DNA from: Candidatus Niyogibacteria bacterium CG10_big_fil_rev_8_21_14_0_10_46_36
Lineage (GTDB): Bacteria; Patescibacteriota; Minisyncoccia; 1-14-0-10-42-19
Direction of reading: 5' to 3'
NCBI GenBank assembly: GCA_002772995.1
Contig: PFCO01000003.1
Span: 2,840 to 40,065 of the forward strand
DNA: 37,226 bases
Shown here: one piece after another, positions 8,108 through 29,516 of the stretch
How the letters are laid out: each line of letters opens with the position of its first letter
Position numbering within the stretch: position 1 is the stretch's first letter
Position numbers and translations under genes: made by a program
The notes under the pieces: generated by a model
The model's input: the letters and a program-made list of their open reading frames with translations, nothing else
What the model was told of the DNA's origin: nothing
Databases searched by the model: none

Positions 8108-9715
8108 TTAAAAGATGAGTTTTTTATCTTTTTTGAACTTGTGTGTGTTTTGTGGTTCTTCAGAATGATTCTTGCCTCCGCCATAACTGCAGCGTATGAG
8201 CGTAAGAATCCATTCCTCCGGCGTTTCATCCAAATGGAATGTGTCCAGATGGACAGGACGCCCCCACAACCTGAAGATCCGCTCCATGGTCTTATTGCGC
8301 CATGACTGCGGAGTCAGCTCGAGATACTGAAGCGCTTCAAACGGGTATCCTTTAAAGTGGTGAACCAAAAGCAGATCACCTGTGTCTTTATAGTTTCCGT
8401 CTTTCACATAGATAAGGGGCGCTATGAACTTAGACAAAGAATTTTTCAGAATGATACGGATGATGGCCGGGTTATCCTCGACAATTTCGTCGACTATAGT
8501 ATCCGTCTCATCATCGTAGCGTTCCTGGTAGATATAGAGCTCGTTACCGCGGATAAATTCGTTGGTAAAAAACTCGTCTATCGCCAGATAATCGTTGCAG
8601 AGCTCCCGGACCTCAAATATCTTCTCCATGCCGAGCTTGGCGTCCTTAAACCACTTCGCCTTTTTATACGGATCTTCGCATTTCTCGTATTCCTCACCAA
8701 ACCTGCCTGTATCCCACCGGTACTTGATGTCTTCGAAAAGCGCGAGTCCGATACTGTACCAGTTCATCTGGTATTTGCTCTTACGCACAACGGCGGCGTG
8801 GTAGTGATTGAATACGGAAAAATCTTTGTCATCAAGCACATTTTCCTTAAAGAGCCGGTGCATGATGCGATAATGCCAGAACGATGCCCAGCCTTCGTTC
8901 AAGGTTTTTGTACGGGCATTCGGCGCTAAGTGGCGGGCCTGATTGCGCATTACCGAAAGAACATCCTTCATCCAGGGTTTGAGCGTTTTCCCCGAAGCGT
9001 GGCGGATGATGTACGACAGTAAATCATACGCGGGCTGGGGAGGCGTTTTGTCCTGGAGATCTTCAATCTCGCGCCGGTATATCTGGATGTCTTCAGCGGT
9101 GATATGGTGTGCGTATGTAGACGGATTATCGATTTTCCACTGGAGCTGCTCCTGTTTGAGCTTAACCAGATACTCGCGAATCTCTTTTTCGTTCTCTTCG
9201 TTGGCAAATAAATTCGGTGACTGATGCCACTGAATCGCTTCTGCCGCATCCATGATGTTTTCAACTGCATGTTGGCCATAGATAGATTCGTATGTCTGGA
9301 AACGGCGCGCGGCTCTTCGTGCTTCCGTAGCGATATCCGCTACGGAACGGGCATGCTGGAGATATTTATTCGCAAGAAAAAAATCAACGTGCCCCATCAC
9401 ATGCGCTATAGTAAGAACCTTAAGCGCGAACGGATTAGTTTCAGCAATGAGCGCTTTTGGCGTTTCGAAATTCCACACCTGCTCATACGGAATACCCTGG
9501 CCGGTGTGTTCATAGATTGTACGGTTTTTTTCGTAGTCTCTTCCGAACTGCCAATAGGAAAAATTGGTCGGGAAATGGAACGACATGCCTTCAAGCACCC
9601 GGTCAGCGGGAACGACTTCGAATATAGTATCCGTTGTCTGTAATCCTTCTTCTTGGGCGATCTCGATGATGCGCTCTTCAACCCGCTTTAAGCGGTCTAT
9701 TTCTTTCTGCGTCAT
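8108..9715 (-). CDS. spoVR: SpoVR family protein, 535 aa
   Basis: The family is known from Bacillus, where SpoVR affects spore cortex formation, and from E. coli YcgB; its biochemical activity is unknown. Seen here: the family signatures HVMGHVDFF (105-113) and NEGWASFWH (273-281), plus the conserved C-terminal region around LLLVHHFKGYPF. The clustered His and Glu in both signatures look like metal ligands, which is inference. Length is normal. The ATG at 9715 overlaps the TGA of the DUF444 gene (ATGA), and GGGGAGG lies just upstream, so the two genes are translationally coupled. Family partners PrkA and DUF444 are directly upstream. The C-terminus ends in a lysine-rich tail. Confidence 0.95.
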   Translation of the reverse strand: MTQKEIDRLKRVEERIIEIAQEEGLQTTDTIFEVVPADRVLEGMSFHFPTNFSYWQFGRDYEKNRTIYEHTGQGIPYEQVWNFETPKALIAETNPFALKVLTIAHVMGHVDFFLANKYLQHARSVADIATEARRAARRFQTYESIYGQHAVENIMDAAEAIQWHQSPNLFANEENEKEIREYLVKLKQEQLQWKIDNPSTYAHHITAEDIQIYRREIEDLQDKTPPQPAYDLLSYIIRHASGKTLKPWMKDVLSVMRNQARHLAPNARTKTLNEGWASFWHYRIMHRLFKENVLDDKDFSVFNHYHAAVVRKSKYQMNWYSIGLALFEDIKYRWDTGRFGEEYEKCEDPYKKAKWFKDAKLGMEKIFEVRELCNDYLAIDEFFTNEFIRGNELYIYQERYDDETDTIVDEIVEDNPAIIRIILKNSLSKFIAPLIYVKDGNYKDTGDLLLVHHFKGYPFEALQYLELTPQSWRNKTMERIFRLWGRPVHLDTFHLDETPEEWILTLIRCSYGGGKNHSEEPQNTHKFKKDKKLIF

Positions 9716-11136
9716 CTGTCAAACCTCCCCTTTTTCAGAAATTGCCTGATGGCAGGCAGAATGTCTTCTTTGCCCGTAAGCACAACGCCAACGAACGGAA
9801 AGTTCTGGTTGCCTATAATAACCTGCAAGTCATCGTTTTCTTTCCGGTTAAGTTCCGTAACAGGCAGTTCTTTTTTGAAGAGCGAATACAGATTGTATTC
9901 ACTGACAGCAACGCCATCAATGTCTATTTCACCGTACCCAATCATCTGAACGCCTTTTTCTTTCAGCCGCTGTATCTCGCGGATGGTGCTCGCCGGATCA
10001 AAATCCTCTCCGTCAGAGAAATGAAACACATACCGGTTCCATGATGAGACCGGATATTTTGTTTCGAGCATGTCTGTCGCGGCATCATACGCGGTCCAAC
10101 AATTCGTGCCGCCGCTTTCAACGGTGCGGAAGAAATCCTCTTCCGGCACAAAGCGGGCTTTCGTGTGATGCACAATAAAACGGACCTCTACCTCTTCGTA
10201 CAGCTTGCGCAAAAATTCAATAAACCAGAAGAGCGTTGCGCGCACAAGATATTTTTTCATATCAGACATGGAAGCCGAAACATCCATCGCGGCGATGATG
10301 ACGGCGCGCGACTTGTATGATATGTCCCGTTCAAGTTTGCGGTACCGCAAATCGTCCGTCTCAATAATGATGAATGGGTCCACTTCTGTGACCACGCCAT
10401 CCTCAATATCCTTTTTTGCACGCTTGATAAATACGCCGTCCGCATCCTGTATAAGCGCTTCGGCATCCGCTAGAATGCCGTCTTTTTCTTTAAGCGCCAT
10501 GAACGCGATGAGCTCCTTTATGCGCTCGTCGGTAATATCCGGACATGTTTCCTCAAGCAAAGACTCAAGATAGTTAAGATAGAACCAAAAACGTCTCATG
10601 CCTTCTTTTGCGCTCTTTTTGGAATGCAAAAGCGACTGTGGGCCGTGCTTAACGATATCTTTTATCTTTATCCCGAAGATAACTTCCATTTCTTTTATGT
10701 CTTTCTCTTGCAGGTTCGGGAGTTCGAGATCTTCAAGCATCATTTCGATGAGCTCTTCAATCTCAAATTCGGATTCTATGTATTCTTCGCCGGGTTCATT
10801 CCCCGCCTTGCCTGCACCCCGTCCGGATTGATCCGCGGGACGCTGCCCGATAATGTCTCCTTTTTTACCAGAGCCCTGGCCTACGCCAACGCCGCCGCTG
10901 CCCTGCCCTTCGTCATCGCCATCTTCGTTCTCTCGTCTCTTTCCTTGGCGGAACCGCTCGTTTTGGAGCGACCGTATCGGAACTTTGACAATTCTCCCCT
11001 TCTTCTTTGTAATGATGGACTCATCAGCGATGATGCCCGGAAGGCCTTTTTTTATCTCTTCGCGTCTTTTCTCGCGGTGGCGTCGTGCGCTTTCTTTCCC
11101 TTTATTTTCAATGCTATCCGAAACAATAACGGTCAT
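9712..11136 (-). CDS. yeaH: DUF444/YeaH-YhbH family VWA-domain protein, 474 aa
   Basis: This family is paired with PrkA and SpoVR in many bacteria and is thought to act in the same stress or starvation response. The N-terminus (about 1-70) is basic and is followed by a Gly-rich acidic linker (70-120) and a helical region. The C-terminal half is a von Willebrand A domain with a MIDAS site: DVSAS (285-289), Thr344 in GGTN, Asp375 in FSDGED. These should bind a metal and a partner protein. The start is moved to the ATG at 11136 because AAAGGAGGTT (11141-11150) lies 4 nt upstream; an open frame to 11199 would run through the promoter. The stop overlaps spoVR. Upstream are an extended -10 and the prkA terminator, so DUF444-spoVR form a two-gene operon. 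Confidence 0.93.
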   Translation of the reverse strand: MTVIVSDSIENKGKESARRHREKRREEIKKGLPGIIADESIITKKKGRIVKVPIRSLQNERFRQGKRRENEDGDDEGQGSGGVGVGQGSGKKGDIIGQRPADQSGRGAGKAGNEPGEEYIESEFEIEELIEMMLEDLELPNLQEKDIKEMEVIFGIKIKDIVKHGPQSLLHSKKSAKEGMRRFWFYLNYLESLLEETCPDITDERIKELIAFMALKEKDGILADAEALIQDADGVFIKRAKKDIEDGVVTEVDPFIIIETDDLRYRKLERDISYKSRAVIIAAMDVSASMSDMKKYLVRATLFWFIEFLRKLYEEVEVRFIVHHTKARFVPEEDFFRTVESGGTNCWTAYDAATDMLETKYPVSSWNRYVFHFSDGEDFDPASTIREIQRLKEKGVQMIGYGEIDIDGVAVSEYNLYSLFKKELPVTELNRKENDDLQVIIGNQNFPFVGVVLTGKEDILPAIRQFLKKGRFDR

Positions 11137-11185
11137 ATGCAACCTCCTTTGTTCATCTGTCAAAAAGCATGTTTTGCCGTGTCCT

Positions 11186-11194
11186 ATTATAGCA
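11186..11194 (-). promoter_or_regulatory. Extended -10 (TGCTATAAT) for DUF444-spoVR
   Basis: Minus-strand TGCTATAAT, a near-perfect extended -10, sits about 50 nt before the start codon at 11136 and just after the prkA terminator. No -35 is evident, as is common for extended -10 promoters. Confidence 0.6.
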
Positions 11195-11204
11195 AACAAA
11201 AAAG

Positions 11205-11229
11205 AAAGGGTGCACTATGTGCACCCTTT
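11205..11229. terminator. Terminator after prkA
   Basis: AAAGGGTGCAC (11205-11215), loop TAT, GTGCACCCTTT (11219-11229), with CTTTTTTG following on the minus strand. It lies just past the prkA stop codon. Confidence 0.9.
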
Positions 11230-11233
11230 GGTG

Positions 11234-13327
11234 TTATTCTGTTTCTGCTTTATAAAACTCTTCGCGCATTTCGGCGCTGCATGTCGAGCAGAAGCCTTCC
11301 TCTTCCAAGGCCGAAAGCAAGTTTTCCTTGCGTTTCTTGTCTTCTGCTGTGTGCGTCTTTCCTTCGTCAAAAAGGAGAATGATGTTGCTCTTGTTATCCG
11401 ATATGAGCTTTGCTTCTATCATGTCGTCCAATTCTTTGAAGGATTTATCCTCATTATTTGAGAGATAAATCAAAACGCTGCTCCGCCAGTTTTCCGCACC
11501 CGCTTCCGGAATGTTCCCAAACTTTTCAATTCCTTTCAGGAACTTTTCATCTGCTTCTAGCGGCTGGCCGGTGATTTTGTCGCGAGGAATCTCAAGCATC
11601 TGTCCGCGCAGAAAATCCGATTTTTGCGAAACATAGAGCTTGCACTGCTCGAGGTATCTCTTGCGGATGTTCTGCCGTATATCGCTATATCCTTTCACGA
11701 ACGCTTTTGTCACCGACTTGCTGATGAAATCCCGGAGCTCGCTAATGACATTCGCTTTGCCGGGGTTCAGCAGTTCAAGGAACTTCTCAACTTCCTCAGG
11801 CGAATATCCCATACGGTGTTCAAACACTTCGCGGAGCGCCTTAACCATCGTGAGCGGCGTGAGACAGCCGTCAACATCAAGCTTGGTGAGTGCGTCAACG
11901 ATAGCGGTCAGGATGTCGCGGTAACTGAGACCGAACATGCCTTCGTGCTTATCGATGGGATTTTTTGAGTCATTGAATTCCTCGCGAAGTGACCGTTCAT
12001 CGATAGGATTTTTATCCTTGTCTTTGATATCAGTAAGTGCGCGCTCCTTATTGTAAATCTTGAGCTTAGTCAGACGGTCAACGCCGTACTTTTGAGAATC
12101 ATGGAGCCTGGTCATAACAGCGAATATTGCCGCTATCCTGAAACTGATATCAGGAATGTGCATTTTCTTCAGCTTAATGAACTGACTCTCGCGTTCAATG
12201 AGCTTTTTGTAGATCTTTATCTCATTGTCAATCTCAAGCGTATACGGAAAACGGATAACATGCATACGGTCATGGAGCGCGGCGTTTGCCTCGTTCGCGG
12301 AAAATTCCTTGAACTCCTTGAGGTTGCAGTGCCCAATGATTACCGTATCAATGAACATATGCGGAAACGGCGAACCCTGTATCTTGATGAGCTTTTCTTC
12401 GGCAAGACTGATAAATACTTTCAGTATCTTCGGGTCGGCTTTGATAAGCTCAATGCCTTCAAGAATACCCCGGTTTGCCTTTTGTATCTCTCCGTTCATC
12501 TGATAGGCTTCGGGATGATCATGTCCGTGTTTGCTGGAGATAGCTATGTTTTCACGGCCAACGAGCTCTGAAACATCAACGCTCCAGTCAGCGCCCGTGG
12601 ACTCAAACGAACTGATACCGCGAACTGACGATACGGAAAACGTGAATGTTTCTACCGGGATTTGCTCCCACTTGTCGCCGAATTCTTTGTCCGAATACTT
12701 CTCTTTTATCATGTGTCGGCATACATGACACAAGTCTCCCTCTATCGGGGGAATACCAATGCGGTCTTCTACCGGCTCTTTTATGTTCGGGCTCTTCTTC
12801 GGATTCCATGCACGCCGCGTCATCCAGCGAGGAAACGCATGAAGCGGTTCTTCGTGAATCGGGCATCCTTGTATCTGATACACTGGGCGTAACGCATACG
12901 CTTCAAGAGCTTTTTTGATGAGTGACGAAATGGTTGATTTACCTGACGATGTAGGCCCAACCATAACGAGAACATATTTTCCGCTCGGTCCTTTCATAGC
13001 GCCAGCTTCAAAATGTCTCATAATCTGCTCGATAACCTTATCAACCCCGAATAGATCTTCTTCGAAGTAGTGATACTTCTTCCCCGCCGAAGTGCCGGTA
13101 ATTCCGTAACTGCATATCTGCTCATATAAGCGAGCTGCAGCGTTTTGCGCAATGAGCGGATCGTTCGGCAGAACTTCTTCGGCGTACTCTTTGAGAGTAA
13201 TGACTGAGTGACGCTTTCTTTTTTCTGCTTTAAGCCGCTTATCTTCTTCCACATAGTCAGTAAGATCGACTCGTTTCCGAGGCGCATCTTTCTGTTCGTT
13301 CTTCGGAGATTTCTTCGATGAACCCAT
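11234..13327 (-). CDS. prkA: PrkA-type AAA+ serine protein kinase, 697 aa
   Basis: PrkA (YeaG in E. coli) has an AAA+ domain and a C-terminal kinase-related domain; it is tied to sporulation in Bacillus and nitrogen starvation in E. coli. Seen here: a basic N-terminal extension (about 1-45), Walker A GPTSSGKS (124-131; the family usually has GxxGSxKS) and the family signature CPIHEEPL (155-162). CHVC (about 200) and the PrkA-typical VSELVGRENIA and NRGILEGIE segments follow, and the C-terminus has a CSTC pair near the end. Length is slightly above the roughly 640 of E. coli YeaG because of the N-terminal extension. The start at 13327 has GGGGAGGAA 5 nt upstream. It has its own promoter and terminator and precedes DUF444-spoVR. 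Confidence 0.93.
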   Translation of the reverse strand: MGSSKKSPKNEQKDAPRKRVDLTDYVEEDKRLKAEKRKRHSVITLKEYAEEVLPNDPLIAQNAAARLYEQICSYGITGTSAGKKYHYFEEDLFGVDKVIEQIMRHFEAGAMKGPSGKYVLVMVGPTSSGKSTISSLIKKALEAYALRPVYQIQGCPIHEEPLHAFPRWMTRRAWNPKKSPNIKEPVEDRIGIPPIEGDLCHVCRHMIKEKYSDKEFGDKWEQIPVETFTFSVSSVRGISSFESTGADWSVDVSELVGRENIAISSKHGHDHPEAYQMNGEIQKANRGILEGIELIKADPKILKVFISLAEEKLIKIQGSPFPHMFIDTVIIGHCNLKEFKEFSANEANAALHDRMHVIRFPYTLEIDNEIKIYKKLIERESQFIKLKKMHIPDISFRIAAIFAVMTRLHDSQKYGVDRLTKLKIYNKERALTDIKDKDKNPIDERSLREEFNDSKNPIDKHEGMFGLSYRDILTAIVDALTKLDVDGCLTPLTMVKALREVFEHRMGYSPEEVEKFLELLNPGKANVISELRDFISKSVTKAFVKGYSDIRQNIRKRYLEQCKLYVSQKSDFLRGQMLEIPRDKITGQPLEADEKFLKGIEKFGNIPEAGAENWRSSVLIYLSNNEDKSFKELDDMIEAKLISDNKSNIILLFDEGKTHTAEDKKRKENLLSALEEEGFCSTCSAEMREEFYKAETE

Positions 13328-19485: not shown

Positions 19486-20601
19486 TTATGTTCCTATTTT
19501 TAGGTGTTTGCTTTCTTCGTCATGGAGCTTCCGCTCTACTATCTCATCAGATATTTGATACGGGGACCTGCCAGTAAGCATGCTTTGCCTGAAAATATGC
19601 GTCAGCCGGCCGCCTATCTTTTCTACATCCTGCAGCACCGCTTCAGCGTTAAACCCGATCTTTTCATGATAAATATGAATGAGACCGCCGCCGTTAATAA
19701 CATACGCAGGCGCGACAAGAATGTTGCGGGTATGATGCAAGTAATCGGCGTACTGCGTGGTTGATTTTGTAAATATGCAGTTTGCAGACCCCGCAATTGC
19801 CCGGCAATCAAACTCATCCACCGAATGCTTGTTGATAATGCCTCCGCCCGCACACGGCACGAACACATCACAGGCCATCTGGTGGGCGGCATCCGAAGGA
19901 ATAGCAACTACTTGCCCGGATATTTCTTTCATCGCGCGCTCTACCGCTTCGGGCTTCATATCCGAAATAAAAACCGTGCCTCCCCCTTCAGCTAATGCTT
20001 TTGCTATGGGAAGTCCCGTAGCGCCGACCCCTTGCACACAAAATGACCTTCCGCTAAAACTTCTATCCCCATACAAAAATTCAAGTACCACCTGTATGCC
20101 GCAGAGTACTCCGTGCTTCGTGCTGAGCGACGGATCGCCTCCGCCGACAACGCCGTCTTTGTGCCGTCTTACGGAACGCCCGAATACATGCGTAGTTATC
20201 TCTGCCATAGTGTCTATGTCGGACACATGGAAATTCATATCTTCTCCGGTATTGAACATCCCGCGAAGCTTGTCTACGCAATACGCATATGCGCGCACCA
20301 AGTCATCCGTTTTATCTTTTTCCGGATTGCCTATCAGTACTGCCTTTGCTCCCCCCCAAGGAACGCCGGCAATAACCGATTTGTATGTCATGTCCCGCGA
20401 AAGCGGCAATACATCGCTTAACGCGTCGTGCATAGTGAGATACGGCCAAAAGCGCGTCCCGCCCGTTCCGTCTCCGAATGTCACATCATGAATCGCAATA
20501 ATTCCCTCAAGACCGAACCGTTCTCTCGTGATATGGATAACCATAACATGATTATCAAAATCAGGATGATTGCGTACCTTGTCATCCGATAGTATATGCA
20601 T
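19486..20601 (-). CDS. Glu/Leu/Phe/Val dehydrogenase family enzyme (leucine dehydrogenase-like), 371 aa
   Basis: These enzymes reversibly deaminate an amino acid to its 2-oxo acid with NAD(P). The N-terminal domain has GGTRFWPY (47-54) and the two catalytic lysines: Lys74 in MTYK and Lys86 in GGAK, 12 residues apart as in leucine dehydrogenase. The catalytic Asp121 is in TGEDM. The Rossmann domain has GVGATG (191-196), PCAGGGIIN and AIAGSAN, then VAPAYVINGGGLIH. Length (371) fits leucine/phenylalanine dehydrogenases rather than the longer hexameric glutamate dehydrogenases; the true substrate is not fixed by sequence alone. ATG 20601 has AGGGGAG 7 nt upstream. It stands alone before a terminator. 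An amino-acid catabolic enzyme next to starvation-linked PrkA genes is suggestive. Confidence 0.9.
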   Translation of the reverse strand: MHILSDDKVRNHPDFDNHVMVIHITRERFGLEGIIAIHDVTFGDGTGGTRFWPYLTMHDALSDVLPLSRDMTYKSVIAGVPWGGAKAVLIGNPEKDKTDDLVRAYAYCVDKLRGMFNTGEDMNFHVSDIDTMAEITTHVFGRSVRRHKDGVVGGGDPSLSTKHGVLCGIQVVLEFLYGDRSFSGRSFCVQGVGATGLPIAKALAEGGGTVFISDMKPEAVERAMKEISGQVVAIPSDAAHQMACDVFVPCAGGGIINKHSVDEFDCRAIAGSANCIFTKSTTQYADYLHHTRNILVAPAYVINGGGLIHIYHEKIGFNAEAVLQDVEKIGGRLTHIFRQSMLTGRSPYQISDEIVERKLHDEESKHLKIGT

Positions 20602-22017: not shown

Positions 22018-23746
22018 ATTTTTTCCCCGATTTCGATTTTTCTACTATTTTCACTGCCTGCACTCCCCGTACGCGTTTTATGCGCGTACGGATTTTTTGC
22101 ATCTCATCCTTATTTTGAGGAACAAAACTCACGCGGATTGATGTATACGGCGAATTCCGTCCGACATGGCTTTCTATATCTTTGATGCTTACACCGGCGG
22201 CAGCAATCGCCGCAGATACATCTTTTAAAATGCCGACCCGGTCTTCTACGGTAATATCAACCTCAGACAGCATGGGCTTACCCAGAGTTGCTTCTGTCTG
22301 GCCACGCACGAACCGCCTGATGTGGTTGCGCGCGAGAGATGTTTTTACAAAATCAAGCCACTCACGCGACGGATGCTGGTTTTTGCGCGTGAGGATTTCT
22401 ACCACCGTGCCTGATTGCAGCTCATAATCAAACGGAACCATTTTCCCTTCTACTTTTGCGCCGACCGCATGATCTCCGACCTCCGAATGGATATGATATG
22501 CAAAATCAATTGGTGTTGCGCCCTCCGGAAGATCAATAACATCCCCTTTCGGCGTTAATACGAAGATTCTGTCCTTGAAAAAATCAATCTTAAGAGATTC
22601 CAAAAATGTTTCTGAGTCCGGATTGTTTTTCTGGAATGTCCCCTGCCATTCCTGAAGCTGACGGACCCACGCGAGCTTAGCATCCACTTCCGAGCCTTCT
22701 TTCGGTTTCCCCGCATGCTCCCATGCCCAATGCGCAGCAATTCCAAGCTCTGCTTCCCGGTGCATGTCTTCGGTCCGTATCTGAAACTCAACGATTTGCC
22801 CATCTATGCAAAATACAGTCGTATGGAGCGACTGATATCCGTTTGGCTTTGGAAGCGCAATATAATCTTTAATGCGCCCCGGAAGGGGCTTCCAATGCTT
22901 GTGTATTACCCCGAGTACCGCGTATGCATCCTGGATGTCTTTAATAATGATACGGACCGCAACAAGGTCAAAAATACGATCCCAGTCCATGTCATACCGC
23001 TGGAGTTTTTTCCATAAGCTATAATAATGCTTCGCACGGGCATTAATCTCTACTGCACGGATACCTTCGCGTGCGATTTCTTTTTTCACGATAGGAATGA
23101 CGCGGGCTAAATATATTTCTCTCTGCGGCAGGCGTTTTTTTACTTCTCCGGCAACCCACGCATACTCTTCGGAGTACACATACCGGAACGCCATATCCTC
23201 AAGCTGCGCTTTCATCTCTCCCATTCCCAACCGGTCAGCGAGCGACGCGTATATCTCAAGCGTCTCTTTCGCGATACGCAAACGCTTTTCCGGAAACGGA
23301 AGCGATTCGAGCGTTTCCATGTTATGCAGCCGGTCGCACAGCTTAATGATAACTACGCGTATGTCTTGAGCAACCGCAAGAAACATTTTGCGCATTGACT
23401 CAACAGTACGCTCAACGCCATGGTACTTAATCTTATCCACCTTAGTTACGCCGTCCACTAAAAATGCTATGTCCGTGCCGAATTTTTTTTGTATGTCTTT
23501 GAGTGCCGCACCTTTGTCTTCAATGGTGTCATGCAGCAATGCAGCTGCAACCGTACGCACATCCATGCCGATAGACGCAACTTTGAGCGACACCGCAATA
23601 GGATGCAGTATATACTGTTCGCCGGAGTGGCGTTTTTGGTTTTTATGCGCACCTTCGGCAAACAAAAAAGCATCCTCAAGGAGCTTGAGGTCTTTTATTT
23701 CAAATTCATTATGCGGAAGTTTTTCCTTGTATTCATCCCAGGTCAT
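22016..23746 (-). CDS. rel: RelA/SpoT family (p)ppGpp synthetase/hydrolase, 576 aa
   Basis: Bifunctional Rel makes and degrades the starvation alarmone (p)ppGpp. Domain order: HD hydrolase with HPIAVS and LLHDTIED (71-77), which keeps the metal-binding His-Asp and the Glu-Asp; synthetase with KHYYSLWKK and YIALPKPNGYQSLHTTVF; TGS domain (VIDLPEGATPIDFAYHIH); and a C-terminal ACT domain (DRVGILKDVSAAIAAAGVSIKDIESH). The helical and zinc-finger regions between TGS and ACT of long Rel proteins are short or missing, which explains 576 rather than about 730 residues. The ATG at 23746 overlaps the topA stop (ATGA), so upstream codons in the frame are rejected. It is last in a dprA-topA-rel operon. 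Confidence 0.96.
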   Translation of the reverse strand: MTWDEYKEKLPHNEFEIKDLKLLEDAFLFAEGAHKNQKRHSGEQYILHPIAVSLKVASIGMDVRTVAAALLHDTIEDKGAALKDIQKKFGTDIAFLVDGVTKVDKIKYHGVERTVESMRKMFLAVAQDIRVVIIKLCDRLHNMETLESLPFPEKRLRIAKETLEIYASLADRLGMGEMKAQLEDMAFRYVYSEEYAWVAGEVKKRLPQREIYLARVIPIVKKEIAREGIRAVEINARAKHYYSLWKKLQRYDMDWDRIFDLVAVRIIIKDIQDAYAVLGVIHKHWKPLPGRIKDYIALPKPNGYQSLHTTVFCIDGQIVEFQIRTEDMHREAELGIAAHWAWEHAGKPKEGSEVDAKLAWVRQLQEWQGTFQKNNPDSETFLESLKIDFFKDRIFVLTPKGDVIDLPEGATPIDFAYHIHSEVGDHAVGAKVEGKMVPFDYELQSGTVVEILTRKNQHPSREWLDFVKTSLARNHIRRFVRGQTEATLGKPMLSEVDITVEDRVGILKDVSAAIAAAGVSIKDIESHVGRNSPYTSIRVSFVPQNKDEMQKIRTRIKRVRGVQAVKIVEKSKSGKK

Positions 23747-25896
23747 ACGGAATCCTCGGAATCGGGATGCTCCTCTTTGTATGAGCACTCCTTATTAGAA
23801 CATTTAATCCCGCTTTTAAGCTGTACGAGCGCCTGTCCGCACTCAGGGCAGAGGGTGCCTGTCGGTCTTTGCCATACCGCAAAATCACAATCGGGGTAGC
23901 GCGAACATCCGTAAAAAACACGGCGCTTGCGCGTGCGGCGCTCAACGACATCGCCGTCTTTGCATTTAGGACATTTGATGCCGAGCGGCTCAGGAGGTAA
24001 TGCCTTTGTAAACTTGCAGTCCGGAAAACCGGAGCATGATATGAATTTACCGAAACGCCCGTGGCGTATCATGAGCTGCTTGCCGCACTCCGGGCACATC
24101 TCATCAATCGTTTCGGTCATGTCCTCTTTTGCAACTGTCTCGTATTTTTCTTCAAGCACCTTCGCAAACGGCTCATAAAAATCTTTTATAAGGCCGCGCC
24201 ACTCTTTTTCTCCCTCAGCAACTTCGTCCAATTTCTGCTCCATATCAGCAGTGAATTCAATATCAACAATCTGCGGGAAGTGCTCTACCAAAAGAGCGTT
24301 CACTTTTTCACCGATCTCGGTCGGCTCAAATTGTTTTTGATCATTCCGGACAACATAATGCCTGTCCTGGATGGTAGACATGGTTGGCGCATACGTTGAC
24401 GGGCGCCCGATGCCGAATTTTTCAAGTGCCTTAATGAGCGACGCTTCGGTATAACGCGGAGGTGGCTGCGTCTCGTGATCTTCCGACTGCATACTCAACA
24501 CCGCAAGCGTGTCGTTCTCCTGAAGCACCGGCAACAGCGTATCCTCTTTCTTCATCGGAGAGACCTTCAAAAAGCCGTCAAAGCGGAGAATGCTTCCTGT
24601 TGTGCGGAACTGGTAGGTTTTTTTGTTATGCGCACCCGCGTCAATAACGAATGTCGTCTGTTCAAATTCCGCATCATTCATCTGGCTTGCAACAAACCGC
24701 CTCCAGATGAGCGAGTACAACCGATACTGATCGCTTGTTAGATTGTTCTTTATAGCATCAGGAAGCAATGTGACGTCAACCGGGCGTATTGCTTCATGCG
24801 CTTCTTGGGCGCCCTTTGCTTTCTTTTTGAACTCACGGGGCGCTTCCGGAACATACGAATCGCCATATGCATCTTTGATATGGCCGCGCACCGCATGAAG
24901 CGCTTCTTCGGCGATATTCAATGAATCGGTGCGCATGTATGTGATGAGACCGACTGCTCCCCCTTTGGTGAGCTCAACTCCTTCATACAATTGCTGCGCA
25001 ATAAGCATGGTTTTTTTCGCGGAAAACCGCAGCCGCGACCAGGCCGCCTGCTGCAGTGTAGCCGTAGTGAACGGGGGCGAGGGCCGCTGTATACGCTTTC
25101 TCTTTTCTACCTGGATGATACGGAACGATGCCTGATCAATAGACGCAATCGCTTCTTCAGCAATCTGTTTTTCGGTGATACCCGGTTTTTCGATGGTTAC
25201 GCCGTCTATCGCATATAGCTGCGAATCAAATGCCGCGCATTGCTCGCCAGATTCGCTGGTACATCCTTTCTTTTGCACGCGCGCGGCGATGGTCCAGAAC
25301 TTTTGCGGATTGAATTTCTTTATTTCTTCTTCCCGCTCAACAACAAGACGCAATGCAACTGATTGCACGCGGCCCGCAGAAAGTCCCCGGGCTATTTTTT
25401 TCCATAAGAACGGGGAGAGCTTATACCCCACAAGCCGGTCAAGCACGCGGCGCGCCTGCTGAGCTGCTATTAAGTCTGCGTTAATGTCGCGCGGATGCGA
25501 AAGCGCTTCCTGAATCGCCTTTTTAGTGATTTCGTGGAAAACAATACGCTCTATTTTGAGCTCCTTTTCTTTTTTTGTCTGCTTTTTTTCCTTGTCGCTC
25601 TTGATGCCCATTGCATACAGTAAATGCCACGCAATGGCCTCCCCTTCACGGTCTTCATCAGTTGCCAGAATAACCGTATCTGCTTTTTTCAAAAGAGCTT
25701 TTAATTTTTTTACTACCGGCTGAACCTTACGCGGGATGACATACTGCGGTTCAAAATTATTCTCTACATCAACGCCTAATTTATATGACGGCAAATCACG
25801 AATATGCCCGTATGACGATTCAACGGTGTATCCTTTTCCTAAAAAACGGCTTATGGTTTTTGATTTAGTCGGACTCTCAACAATAACTAATTTCAT
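23743..25896 (-). CDS. topA: DNA topoisomerase I, 717 aa
   Basis: Type IA topoisomerase that relaxes negative supercoils. An N-terminal Toprim domain begins MKLVIVESPTKSKT and has the acidic cluster ATDEDREGE (78-86). The active-site tyrosine is Tyr320 in GLITYMRTDS. The C-terminus carries three four-cysteine zinc ribbons: CPECGKQ...CSGFPDC, CPKCKDG...CSRYPDC and CPECGQA...CSNKEC. It starts 2 nt after the dprA stop and its stop overlaps the rel start. Confidence 0.98.
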   Translation of the reverse strand: MKLVIVESPTKSKTISRFLGKGYTVESSYGHIRDLPSYKLGVDVENNFEPQYVIPRKVQPVVKKLKALLKKADTVILATDEDREGEAIAWHLLYAMGIKSDKEKKQTKKEKELKIERIVFHEITKKAIQEALSHPRDINADLIAAQQARRVLDRLVGYKLSPFLWKKIARGLSAGRVQSVALRLVVEREEEIKKFNPQKFWTIAARVQKKGCTSESGEQCAAFDSQLYAIDGVTIEKPGITEKQIAEEAIASIDQASFRIIQVEKRKRIQRPSPPFTTATLQQAAWSRLRFSAKKTMLIAQQLYEGVELTKGGAVGLITYMRTDSLNIAEEALHAVRGHIKDAYGDSYVPEAPREFKKKAKGAQEAHEAIRPVDVTLLPDAIKNNLTSDQYRLYSLIWRRFVASQMNDAEFEQTTFVIDAGAHNKKTYQFRTTGSILRFDGFLKVSPMKKEDTLLPVLQENDTLAVLSMQSEDHETQPPPRYTEASLIKALEKFGIGRPSTYAPTMSTIQDRHYVVRNDQKQFEPTEIGEKVNALLVEHFPQIVDIEFTADMEQKLDEVAEGEKEWRGLIKDFYEPFAKVLEEKYETVAKEDMTETIDEMCPECGKQLMIRHGRFGKFISCSGFPDCKFTKALPPEPLGIKCPKCKDGDVVERRTRKRRVFYGCSRYPDCDFAVWQRPTGTLCPECGQALVQLKSGIKCSNKECSYKEEHPDSEDSV

Positions 25897-25898
25897 AA

Positions 25899-26750
25899 CT
25901 ATATTGTTTTATAGAATACGCCTCCTCTGTTCTCTACCGCTCCTTCCATCTCAAGAGAGGTAAGGTGTTCCTGCAAAAAACCAATATCATACTTAAGTGT
26001 GAACGCAATTTCATTGATAGTTTTCGGCGCATTCAAAGAATGTAAGATATTCTGTGCAATACCATCAAATTTGTCAACTTTTTCTTCCTGAGGAACTTCT
26101 CTTCCGACAAGCTCCAAGACATCATGCGCATCTCGTATAAGTGCCGCGCCTTCGCGCAAAAGCGCATGTGTTCCAATCGACTGAACGGAGGAAACTTCTC
26201 CAGGAACAGCACCAACTTCTCTATTCGCTTCAAGTGCAAGACGCGCAGTAATCAAGGAGCCTGAACGCATTGCCGCTTCTACAATAATGACCGCGTGAGA
26301 AAGTCCGGCAATAATGCGGTTTCGCGCGGGGAATGTCCAGGCTGCAGCAGCTGTCGTTCCCGGGTATTCGGAGATAATAGAACCATTCCCCTTCAATATG
26401 TCTTCCGCAAGCTTTCTATTATATGTAGGCTGTATATTCTCAATACCGGAACCGAGCACTGCCCAGGTAACGCCCCCGCCCTCAAGCGCACCCCTATGAG
26501 CCGCTGCATCAATGCCGAGGGCAAGCCCGCTTACAATAACAGCACCCCGAAGCGCCAAGTCGCGCGCTAGGGTAAATGCTATTTCTCTTCCGTATGCCGT
26601 AGGCCGGCGCGTGCCGACTATCGCAACAATAGGCGCGTCTGGATTTTGATTATAAAAACTTTGTCCGCGCACAAAAAGCGTTTCCGGCGGCTTTGCCGTT
26701 TCTTTCAAAAGCGCCGGGTATGCGGCATCGGTACGCACAATTGCTTTCAT
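25899..26750 (-). CDS. dprA: DNA-processing protein DprA, 283 aa
   Basis: DprA binds incoming single-stranded DNA and loads RecA during natural transformation. The Rossmann-like domain shows VAIVGTRRPTAYG, VSGLALGIDAAAHRGAL, LGSGIENIQPTYNRKL and SEYPG...FPARNRIIAGLS. The C-terminal winged helix (about 225-283) covers PKTINEIAFTLKYDIGFLQEHLTSLEMEGAVENRGGVFY. The N-terminal SAM-like domain of longer DprA proteins is mostly absent, typical of small genomes. TATGAT (26757-26762) lies 6 nt before the ATG, so the operon probably starts leaderless. First gene of dprA-topA-rel. Confidence 0.96.
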   Translation of the reverse strand: MKAIVRTDAAYPALLKETAKPPETLFVRGQSFYNQNPDAPIVAIVGTRRPTAYGREIAFTLARDLALRGAVIVSGLALGIDAAAHRGALEGGGVTWAVLGSGIENIQPTYNRKLAEDILKGNGSIISEYPGTTAAAAWTFPARNRIIAGLSHAVIIVEAAMRSGSLITARLALEANREVGAVPGEVSSVQSIGTHALLREGAALIRDAHDVLELVGREVPQEEKVDKFDGIAQNILHSLNAPKTINEIAFTLKYDIGFLQEHLTSLEMEGAVENRGGVFYKTI

Positions 26751-26762: not shown

Positions 26763-26781
26763 CTATTTTTTCTCCATACAA

Positions 26782-26808
26782 AAAACCGCATCATACTGAT
26801 GCGGTTTT
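26782..26808. terminator. Terminator after the IDO-like gene
   Basis: AAAACCGCATCA (26782-26793), loop TAC, TGATGCGGTTTT (26797-26808), with TTTTTTG following on the minus strand. It isolates the upstream dioxygenase gene from dprA. Confidence 0.9.
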
Positions 26809-26815
26809 ACGGATG

Positions 26816-28063
26816 TTATTTCATCCGCGTTTCATCTCTATGTTTTTTGAGATATGGGGCAAATGGCGTACCGCCGGTTCCTACCTGAGTGGGGTTTGCC
26901 GCATGTTTCTGTTGATGTGAAAAAATGTAACGATGCGCATATTCAAGATGCAAGGAGCGAAATTCCTCAAGCTTCTGTCTGCAGCGTTCGTATAATTCGA
27001 ACATATACGGCGTTTTTTCTTTGCGCGCTTCCACAAATTGGAGCAACGAAGCGTTCCGCTCGACCATTTCTATAAACGCCCGATGGCCTACCGGCATATA
27101 GTCGCGCATTTCTAAAAGAAATTGTTTTAAGTAATTATCTTCATGCTCGACTCCTAATATTGCATCAAGCAACGGAACGATGGAGCTTTGCGCGCCCGTT
27201 TCACCGCGGAATTGCTGCGGTGTACCACCGTATGCCTCCACGCCGGGGTACATCAATCCTTTGGGAAGCGCCGGATTGTTCTTCCATCCGTGAATGTACG
27301 GGCGCACTCTGTTGTAATACACAAATGTCGGATCGCATCGTTCGGGTACACGCTTGAGCGTTTCGAGCATTTTTTCTTCAGCGCATACGATAATCTGAAG
27401 CTCTCGTATGACCGCCTCCTCACTTCCGGCTGCACGGAGTATTTCGAGCGATGCTTTGGGGATAAGACCCGCATGCATCTCTATTTCCACATGCGGAAGA
27501 ATAAACCATTCTTCATCAAGCCCGCCTAAAAAGTTTTGGAGTAGCGCAATATTGCCAAGCGCTATGGGGCCTTCCGGATCTAGCCGGTACCAATTATGAA
27601 GCGCGTAAGACGGATATCCGAGCGACGGATGCCGTCCCAGAGCATGTGCAATCTGATACCAAAGCCGCGCAAAACCCTCCGGGACGCTTTCAGGTGCCGC
27701 AAAGCTTTCATTCCACTCCGCGTCCTGCCAGACATACGCATTCCCCACAAAAGAAAGAAAACGCATTGCCGTTTCAAGAAGATGCGTGTTCCCATCAAAT
27801 GTTTCCGCAATATCAAAATCAGAATTATGTGCAAGTTGATGCTCTAAAAAGTAGTCGGATTCCCGCTCAATATATTCGCGGGCCTTCCCAGCGACAAGCA
27901 GCTTGGGCAGATGGTAGGCTATTTTTTCGTAGCGCCGTACCCATGTACGGTCCGCATTTCCCAAGCAATATACATCGAGGTTCCGTATCGGATCCTCATC
28001 AGGCAAAAACCCGCGCGTCTCCGAAATACCGAAATCAGAAAGCTGTATATCTGTATTCGCCAT
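26816..28063 (-). CDS. Indoleamine 2,3-dioxygenase family heme protein, 415 aa
   Basis: Indoleamine 2,3-dioxygenase opens the indole ring of tryptophan with O2, giving N-formylkynurenine. Family landmarks are in order over the full length: RGFLPDEDPI (17-26), HLPKLL (51-56), WFILPHVEIE (186-195), RVRPYIHGWKNNP (252-264), GETGAQSS (287-294), MRDYMPVGHRAF (319-330), FRSLHLEYAHRYI (368-380) and GTGGTPFAPYLKKHRDET (395-412). His372 aligns with the proximal heme ligand (human His346) and Arg254 with human Arg231. Human Phe226 is Tyr here, and human Ser263 is Thr. Activity is therefore plausible but the substrate may differ. AGAGGTG lies 7 nt before the ATG, unlike leaderless murC and dprA beside it. 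It has its own terminator. No other tryptophan-kynurenine gene is in the window. Transfer from another bacterium is likely but inferred. Confidence 0.9.
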   Translation of the reverse strand: MANTDIQLSDFGISETRGFLPDEDPIRNLDVYCLGNADRTWVRRYEKIAYHLPKLLVAGKAREYIERESDYFLEHQLAHNSDFDIAETFDGNTHLLETAMRFLSFVGNAYVWQDAEWNESFAAPESVPEGFARLWYQIAHALGRHPSLGYPSYALHNWYRLDPEGPIALGNIALLQNFLGGLDEEWFILPHVEIEMHAGLIPKASLEILRAAGSEEAVIRELQIIVCAEEKMLETLKRVPERCDPTFVYYNRVRPYIHGWKNNPALPKGLMYPGVEAYGGTPQQFRGETGAQSSIVPLLDAILGVEHEDNYLKQFLLEMRDYMPVGHRAFIEMVERNASLLQFVEARKEKTPYMFELYERCRQKLEEFRSLHLEYAHRYIFSHQQKHAANPTQVGTGGTPFAPYLKKHRDETRMK

Positions 28064-28181
28064 ACATATTCACCTCTTCTGTATTGTAAAAGATCAAATC
28101 TATGTAAGTCCGTAATACCAAAAAATAATGCCGATGTCCATGATTCTTTGCATATGATAAAAATGCTGTTTTGTATTTTTT

Positions 28182-29516
28182 TTACAATTTAAGATATCCC
28201 CATATCTTCCAAATGTCTCCCGCACCCATAACAACTACTACATCATGCTTCCGCACGGCTTTTCCCAAGAGATGTGCGGCGTCTTTTATTACCGGAGTGT
28301 ATATTGCCGGTGTTTTTTTGCGTATAACAGCTTCGGCGAGCTGTTTTGAACCTACACCCTTTTTCATGGATGCTTTTTCCCGCCCCGCAACACTATATAC
28401 ATCCACCAACAAAACACAATCGGCATCTGTAAATGCGCGCGCAAAATCGCGGAACAAATATTTTGTACGCTGATATTGGTGCGGCTGATACACACACCAT
28501 AATGCACCCTTGCGCAATCGTTTTTCAAATCTTGCGCGTACACCGTTAAGTGTTGCTTTAACTTCGGTCGGATGATGTCCGTAATCATCATACACGAGCG
28601 CCCCATGCAATACGCCCTTATACTCCATTCTTCGTCCCACACCGGAAAACCTCCGCAATACGGCATAAAAGACCTGACTTGGAATACCGATGATTTTTGA
28701 AAGCTCATACACACCAAGCACATTGGATACATTATGCCGGCCGAACAGCCGGATATGCTTTTGGATGTTCTTCAAAGCACGCTTTTGAGAAAAGGAATAA
28801 TACACAACGCGCTTTATGTGTTTTGTTATGGCGCGAATCCCTGTGTCGTCCTTATTTGCGATAATATGCCCTTTCGGATGAATGCGCGAAAGAAATGCGC
28901 GGAAATGCGCGCGTGTTTCGGCGAATGTCTTAAAGTAATCGATATGTTCCCACTCGATACTTGTCCATATAATGATGTCGGGGTCGTACTCCAAAAATGA
29001 CCCCTTATACTCATCTGCTTCTATCACAAGATAGCGGGAACCGCCGTACCGAAAATTCGTGTTCCCAAACTCTGAAACCGTTGCTCCGACAATGACCGTT
29101 GGGTCAAGGCCTGCTTCCGTAAGCAAAGCGCCCACAAGTCCTGTTGTCGTGCTTTTCCCATGCGTTCCGCATATGGCGATAGTGTATTTATCCCGCGTCA
29201 ACGCACCGAGCGCCTGCGGGTAACTCAAGAGTGTGATGCCGCGTCTTTTTGCCGCCCGTACTTCAGGGTTTGTGTGTTTTCCTCTCGTAACAACTGCCTG
29301 GCTGAAAATTACCCGCTCGGCACGCAAAGGAAGATGCTTTGCGCTATGTTCCCCAACCGTTATACGAACCTCCTTTTTGCGGAGCATCTGCACAATAGGC
29401 GAATCCGCTTCGTCGCTTCCTGACACCTGCCACCCCTCATGGACATACCACTGCGCAAGCGCGCTCATGCCTATACCCCCAACGCCTATAAAGTGCACGA
29501 ATTTTTTCCCTCTCAT
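28182..29516 (-). CDS. murC: UDP-N-acetylmuramate-L-alanine ligase MurC, 444 aa
   Basis: MurC adds L-alanine to UDP-MurNAc, the first amino acid of the peptidoglycan stem. Seen: the N-terminal Rossmann motif FIGVGGIGMSALA (9-21), the ATP loop GTHGKSTTT (117-125), the Mur-ligase central motifs (EADEYKGSF, WEHIDYF) and the C-terminal DDYGHHPTE followed by YQPHQYQRTK. Length is normal. TATTAT (29523-29528, minus strand) lies 6 nt before the ATG, so the mRNA is probably leaderless. The gene is divergent from secG. It shows the cell makes or modifies peptidoglycan. Confidence 0.97.
   Translation of the reverse strand: MRGKKFVHFIGVGGIGMSALAQWYVHEGWQVSGSDEADSPIVQMLRKKEVRITVGEHSAKHLPLRAERVIFSQAVVTRGKHTNPEVRAAKRRGITLLSYPQALGALTRDKYTIAICGTHGKSTTTGLVGALLTEAGLDPTVIVGATVSEFGNTNFRYGGSRYLVIEADEYKGSFLEYDPDIIIWTSIEWEHIDYFKTFAETRAHFRAFLSRIHPKGHIIANKDDTGIRAITKHIKRVVYYSFSQKRALKNIQKHIRLFGRHNVSNVLGVYELSKIIGIPSQVFYAVLRRFSGVGRRMEYKGVLHGALVYDDYGHHPTEVKATLNGVRARFEKRLRKGALWCVYQPHQYQRTKYLFRDFARAFTDADCVLLVDVYSVAGREKASMKKGVGSKQLAEAVIRKKTPAIYTPVIKDAAHLLGKAVRKHDVVVVMGAGDIWKIWGYLKL

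Follow-up and report, generated by a model that had tools for sequence, protein, structure and literature searches.

The locus analysed here raises the question of why a bacterium with a very small genome keeps an oxygenase that depends on both heme and molecular oxygen, and what this enzyme might do there. The window, i.e. the whole stretch of 37,226 nucleotides under study, corresponds to contig C3:2840-40065 of a genome of 826,912 bases that is 98.7% complete, which bears out the reduced genome assumed in a preliminary description of this DNA. Judged by this size and by gene content, the organism would be CPR/Patescibacteria-like. The same description recognised in the window a full-length homologue of indoleamine 2,3-dioxygenase (IDO). 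Such genes are not a one-off in reduced genomes, as we found them in 16 of 384 sampled members of the class. The reading that we favour, at a probability of about 0.6, is that the gene encodes a stand-alone cytosolic heme oxygenase, which would be loaded with scavenged heme and act on tryptophan or a related indole. The features of the locus are collected in Table 1.

Table 1. Positions in the window of the IDO gene, its putative expression signals and the genes used as synteny markers
Feature	Position	Strand	Remarks
topA-like DNA topoisomerase I gene	23743..25896	-	synteny marker; named from sequence
dprA-like gene	25899..26750	-	downstream neighbour, synteny marker; named from sequence, not by family search
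Intrinsic terminator	26778..26812	-	immediately past the IDO stop codon; 3-nt loop on a long stem, then a U tail; -16.6 kcal/mol, z -6.3
IDO-family heme dioxygenase gene	26816..28063	-	415 aa, ATG start
Shine-Dalgarno motif GAGGTGA	28070..28076	-	6 nt before the IDO ATG
murC-like gene	28182..29516	-	upstream neighbour, synteny marker; named from sequence

The gene is a real, well-kept and full-length member of a known family. The Pfam profile PF01231 covers residues 8-413 of its product (profile positions 2-410 of 412; E 1.1e-72, 245.6 bits against a cut-off of 26); this was the sole Pfam match of the protein at E<=1, and no match to the TDO family was obtained. Sequence matches to human IDO1 and IDO2 chains gave E-values of about 1e-36 to 6e-43. 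All three residue features named in the preliminary description are in place: the proximal heme-ligand histidine (H372, human H346), the active-site arginine (R254, human R231) and the GTGGT loop (residues 395-399, human 378-382). Further human equivalents are F163 for F187 and Y126 for Y150. At other key sites human IDO1 is not followed, as S167 is replaced by a distal histidine (H191), F226/F227 by Tyr249/Tyr250, and G262-S263-A264 by Glu-Thr-Gly (including T289-G290). The human reference chain used first, 6cxu, is an S167H mutant, and other human chains have serine at this position; a natural distal histidine at position 167 is thus a trait of the bacterial set, the window protein included. 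No signal peptide was visible on reading the sequence, whose N-terminus leads straight into the IDO domain, and the idea of a protein secreted to blunt host signals found no support.

The window protein is predicted to have the IDO fold. Its AlphaFold2 model, computed from an input alignment of 20 bacterial sequences, reached a pLDDT of 84.6 and a pTM of 0.88, and the top solved matches found by Foldseek were crystal structures of tryptophan-bound IDO2 and of IDO1, with TM scores of about 0.8-0.9 (for IDO1, about 0.8 by query length and about 0.9 by target length). Prediction quality was low at residues 390-398, around the GTGGT loop. In human IDO1, the corresponding JK loop is mobile, and structure entries show it in open, intermediate and closed states.

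We propose that the IDO gene, which has a terminator of its own, is transcribed as a separate unit. In a congener, G003, a terminator of different sequence is found at the same place (-19.9 kcal/mol, z -6.9), and the IDO copy of that genome also has a Shine-Dalgarno motif. The two IDO proteins are 62-63% identical and lie in the same topA-dprA-IDO-murC slot. Amino-acid identity between the window genome (G000) and G003 is 0.63 for IDO, 0.68 for murC, 0.71 for dprA and 0.81 for topA, and because the divergence of IDO is roughly in step with that of its neighbours, the gene most likely predates the split of both species. Differences between the two IDO genes at codon positions 1, 2 and 3 amount to 0.31, 0.21 and 0.55, respectively; since changes concentrate at third positions, IDO has been under purifying selection between these genomes.

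The preliminary description took the Shine-Dalgarno start, unlike the starts of both neighbours, as a sign of acquisition by transfer. The motif does exist, and neither neighbour has one; however, 5 of 22 other window genes tested have one, the composition of the IDO gene (GC 0.487, GC3 0.478) is ordinary for the window, and its divergence keeps pace with dprA and murC, so that neither the motif nor composition argues for recent transfer. The slot between dprA and murC is nevertheless variable within the genus. In the congener G002 (L088 6227-8476) it is taken up by a gene of the SIR2 family, an unknown ORF and a gene for an IS200-like transposase, and no IDO was found in G001, which belongs to the same family as the window genome. 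This IDO-free slot, together with the patchy distribution of the gene, is better evidence of gain or loss than the Shine-Dalgarno motif. Contamination of the assembly, which had also been considered, is ruled out by the syntenic copy in G003 and by ten other class members with IDO on contigs of 21-175 kb; the cases in which the contig is shorter than 9 kb (G388, G410, G507 and G563) are weaker.

Several other genes of the window deserve mention. A tryptophan-tRNA ligase gene (TIGR00233; 33555-34562, plus strand) lies about 5.5 kb from IDO, a closeness that is probably due to chance, because IDO-free G002 has the ligase gene at the same place. At 19486-20601 (minus strand) there is a gene of the Glu/Leu/Phe dehydrogenase type, whose best NCBIfam match is the tryptophan dehydrogenase ScyB (251 bits, where the cut-off is 600); it is possibly a second tryptophan-related enzyme. 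A 37%-identical copy adjoins ParB in G002 also. Genes for SpoVR, a DUF444/YeaH-like protein and PrkA kinase are grouped at 8108-13327 (minus strand). This trio is familiar from larger genomes, and here it occurs in a sub-megabase one.

The 16 IDO-bearing genomes of the class sample fall into about nine families (f1, f5, f158, f159, f169, f173, f186, f188 and f200); in a phylum-wide sample of 380 genomes, the window genome was the only one with the gene. Fifteen full-length class copies were compared, i.e. those of G000 and G003 and 13 further extracted proteins. Even though the most distant pairs are only about 20% identical, all 15 keep Y126, F163, H167, Y226, R231, T263, G264, H346 and G378-T379 (human numbering). 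Five copies (G590, G398, G592, G696 and G490) make up a subfamily that has diverged strongly: it sits on a long branch, is about 21-30% identical to the type found in the window and lacks the WKNNP segment. In this subfamily (L107-L110, L112) the loop after GT is altered in several members (GTGKP, GTGTT, GTSKA) and H303 is lost in three, while the heme ligand is kept.

Function is not readable from gene context, because the flanks of IDO differ from family to family: they include a class II tRNA ligase with GreA, TruB, TatD, a Y-family polymerase and a Pup-ligase gene, among others, and no neighbour proved to be conserved between families of the class, nor between phyla among other bacteria. 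The Pup-ligase family gene adjoins IDO in G605 (L111 9287-10882), a genome about 1 Mb in size. Carriage by viruses or plasmids was ruled out, as no relatives were found in viral contigs or phages and the plasmid matches (haloarchaeal, Methylocystis and Sphingobium; 30-41% identity) are not close. The haloarchaeal plasmids, NZ_CP085329.1, NZ_CP100467.1, NZ_CP099393.1 and others, carry IDO homologues of 30-35% identity.

The preliminary description expected the cell to lack kynurenine and NAD synthesis pathways, and noted that heme synthesis is often lacking too; as regards ferrochelatase and kynureninase, the gene content agrees with this. Genomes were examined by family searches and over selected stretches. 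Ferrochelatase, which carries out the final step in making heme, was detected in none of the 16 class genomes with IDO, the window genome included, and in 8 of 14 controls. Kynureninase was not found in the window genome or three relatives (controls 10/14, two of them above the curated cut-off), and the same four genomes yielded neither heme-copper oxidase subunit I (COX1; 8/14 controls positive) nor bd oxidase subunit I (10/14 controls positive). With no ferrochelatase, heme must come from outside or by some other route, and IDO is probably loaded with heme from other cells.

As to the position of the protein within the family, human IDO1/2 stood as an outgroup, far removed from each of the 86 bacterial rows of our tree, which was built without the Gemmatimonas, S. 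scabiei, E. litoralis and Neptuniibacter sequences. A phylogeny with bacterial and eukaryotic IDOs had been suggested as a check; it groups the window protein among bacterial IDOs, with a deep branching order that is uncertain because of long branches. The protein clusters with those of G003 and G533 (support 98/87), and this group is joined by Nitrospira (95/82). A passage of the gene between members of the class and Nitrospira-like bacteria is plausible, in either direction. A common clade for all copies of the class was not rejected in two AU tests (p 0.21 and 0.105), nor was it demonstrated. It was reported that tryptophan is degraded effectively only by the IDO branch to which mammals, fungi, Gemmatimonas aurantiaca and Streptomyces scabiei belong, and that the enzymes of Erythrobacter litoralis and Neptuniibacter caesariensis, as well as fungal IDO-gamma, are very slow on it (PMC4217691). 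Erythrobacter belongs to Sphingomonadales, and Sphingomonadales IDOs fall inside our bacterial set, far from human IDO1/2. It is therefore more likely that the window protein belongs to a low-tryptophan branch, and, as judged through this placement rather than from the characterised sequences themselves, it probably lies outside the effective one. Since only one of three branches degrades tryptophan well, tryptophan is doubtful as the true substrate, and the idea of a new substrate, put forward in the preliminary description, gains weight from the low rates published for the other two (PMC4217691).

What the protein catalyses, on which compound and to what end we infer as follows. The product of the gene would be an IDO of the bacterial type, a heme dioxygenase soluble in the cytosol, with heme supplied by neighbours or a host, as the cell has no ferrochelatase of its own. 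In the presence of oxygen it would oxidise the C2-C3 bond of the indole ring in L-tryptophan or in a closely related indole amino acid or amine, with Arg254 and the GTG loop keeping the substrate in place. As no kynureninase follows, the product would leave the cell or be a dead end, and the likely benefit would consist in removing or modifying an indole compound when oxygen is present.

A narrower form of this proposal is that of a classic IDO, which at physiological rates would convert L-tryptophan to N-formylkynurenine, reduce the level of tryptophan inside the cell or around it and release (formyl)kynurenine to a partner. We regard it as possible and rather doubtful: equivalents of Arg231 and of Thr379 in the GTG loop are kept, and the best matches of the predicted fold are tryptophan-bound IDO2 and IDO1, whereas the characterised bacterial IDOs that fall outside the branch of the mammalian enzymes are reported to be very slow on tryptophan (PMC4217691), kynureninase was not found in the window genome, and distal and pocket residues depart from those of human IDO1 (H for S167, Y for F226, E for G262, T for S263, G for A264). 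By analogy, the substrate may be a compound other than tryptophan, or catalysis may not be the main role of the protein. An IDO turned myoglobin is known from abalone (PMC4191572), and a comparable drift from catalysis would yield a heme-based binder, sensor or store of oxygen or another ligand. Such a role would suit a gene that has no pathway context and a cell in which, as in three relatives, neither respiratory oxidase family tested was found. Nonetheless, 15 of 15 copies retain Arg231, the loop residues G-T and the distal histidine, seemingly more than an oxygen carrier would need, and we hold this role to be improbable and less likely than a heme oxygenase acting on an indole substrate.

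The patchy distribution in the class, and the congener in which genes for SIR2 and an IS200-like transposase occupy the slot, would also suit a laterally acquired passenger gene that is non-functional or drifting. An intact frame in two species, divergence biased to third codon positions and active-site residues invariant across 15 genomes make this very improbable. An indole-directed oxygenase run on scavenged heme is the reading we retain. In a tentative extension of it, which we put forward as a possibility on the unlikely side, tiny-genome members of the class, unable to finish heme synthesis, would keep IDO-type oxygenases of their own, including one diverged subfamily, run on heme from a partner and acting on an indole or aromatic compound other than tryptophan, as a metabolic or signalling link to the host.

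The surprise lies in the repeated presence of IDO in tiny genomes without ferrochelatase. A heme- and oxygen-dependent oxygenase is kept under selection, repeatedly across the class, in cells that lack this enzyme (and, in the four genomes checked, kynureninase too). Should the protein be loaded with heme, acquisition of heme from partners and contact with oxygen would be implied for bacteria that are usually described as fermenters. Our literature search found no paper naming both Candidate Phyla Radiation and indoleamine. The class IDOs are well-defined, expressible proteins from which it could be learned what low-activity bacterial IDOs do.

Comparison with known systems places the window protein closest to IDOs of other bacteria. 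Those of Armatimonadota, Nitrospira, Bacteroidota, Cyanobacteriota and others are homologous over the full length at 43-50% identity, those of sphingomonads are 37-42% identical, and the motifs YY-RVRPYIHGWKNNP, GETGAQS and GTGGTPF are common to the window protein and bacterial IDOs. These relatives come from other phyla; the class copies reside in genomes of 0.6-1.2 Mb, and it was in these genomes that ferrochelatase was sought and not found. With the low-activity IDO branches (Erythrobacter litoralis, Neptuniibacter caesariensis; fungal IDO-gamma), kinship is suggested by the placement of Sphingomonadales, the order of Erythrobacter. Human IDO1 and IDO2 share the predicted fold, the proximal His346, Arg231 and the GTGGT loop, yet identity in structural alignment is only 26-29%; the window protein has histidine at position 167, in contrast to serine in wild-type IDO1 and threonine in IDO2, and, unlike IDO1, it has tyrosine at 226 and Thr/Gly for S263/A264. 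Position 167 of IDO we take to be equivalent to His55 of TDO, a correspondence supported too by the S167H mutant 6cxu. His55 is described in the literature as the distal active-site histidine of TDO, and the window protein, which matches the IDO family only, thus resembles TDO in having a histidine on the distal side.
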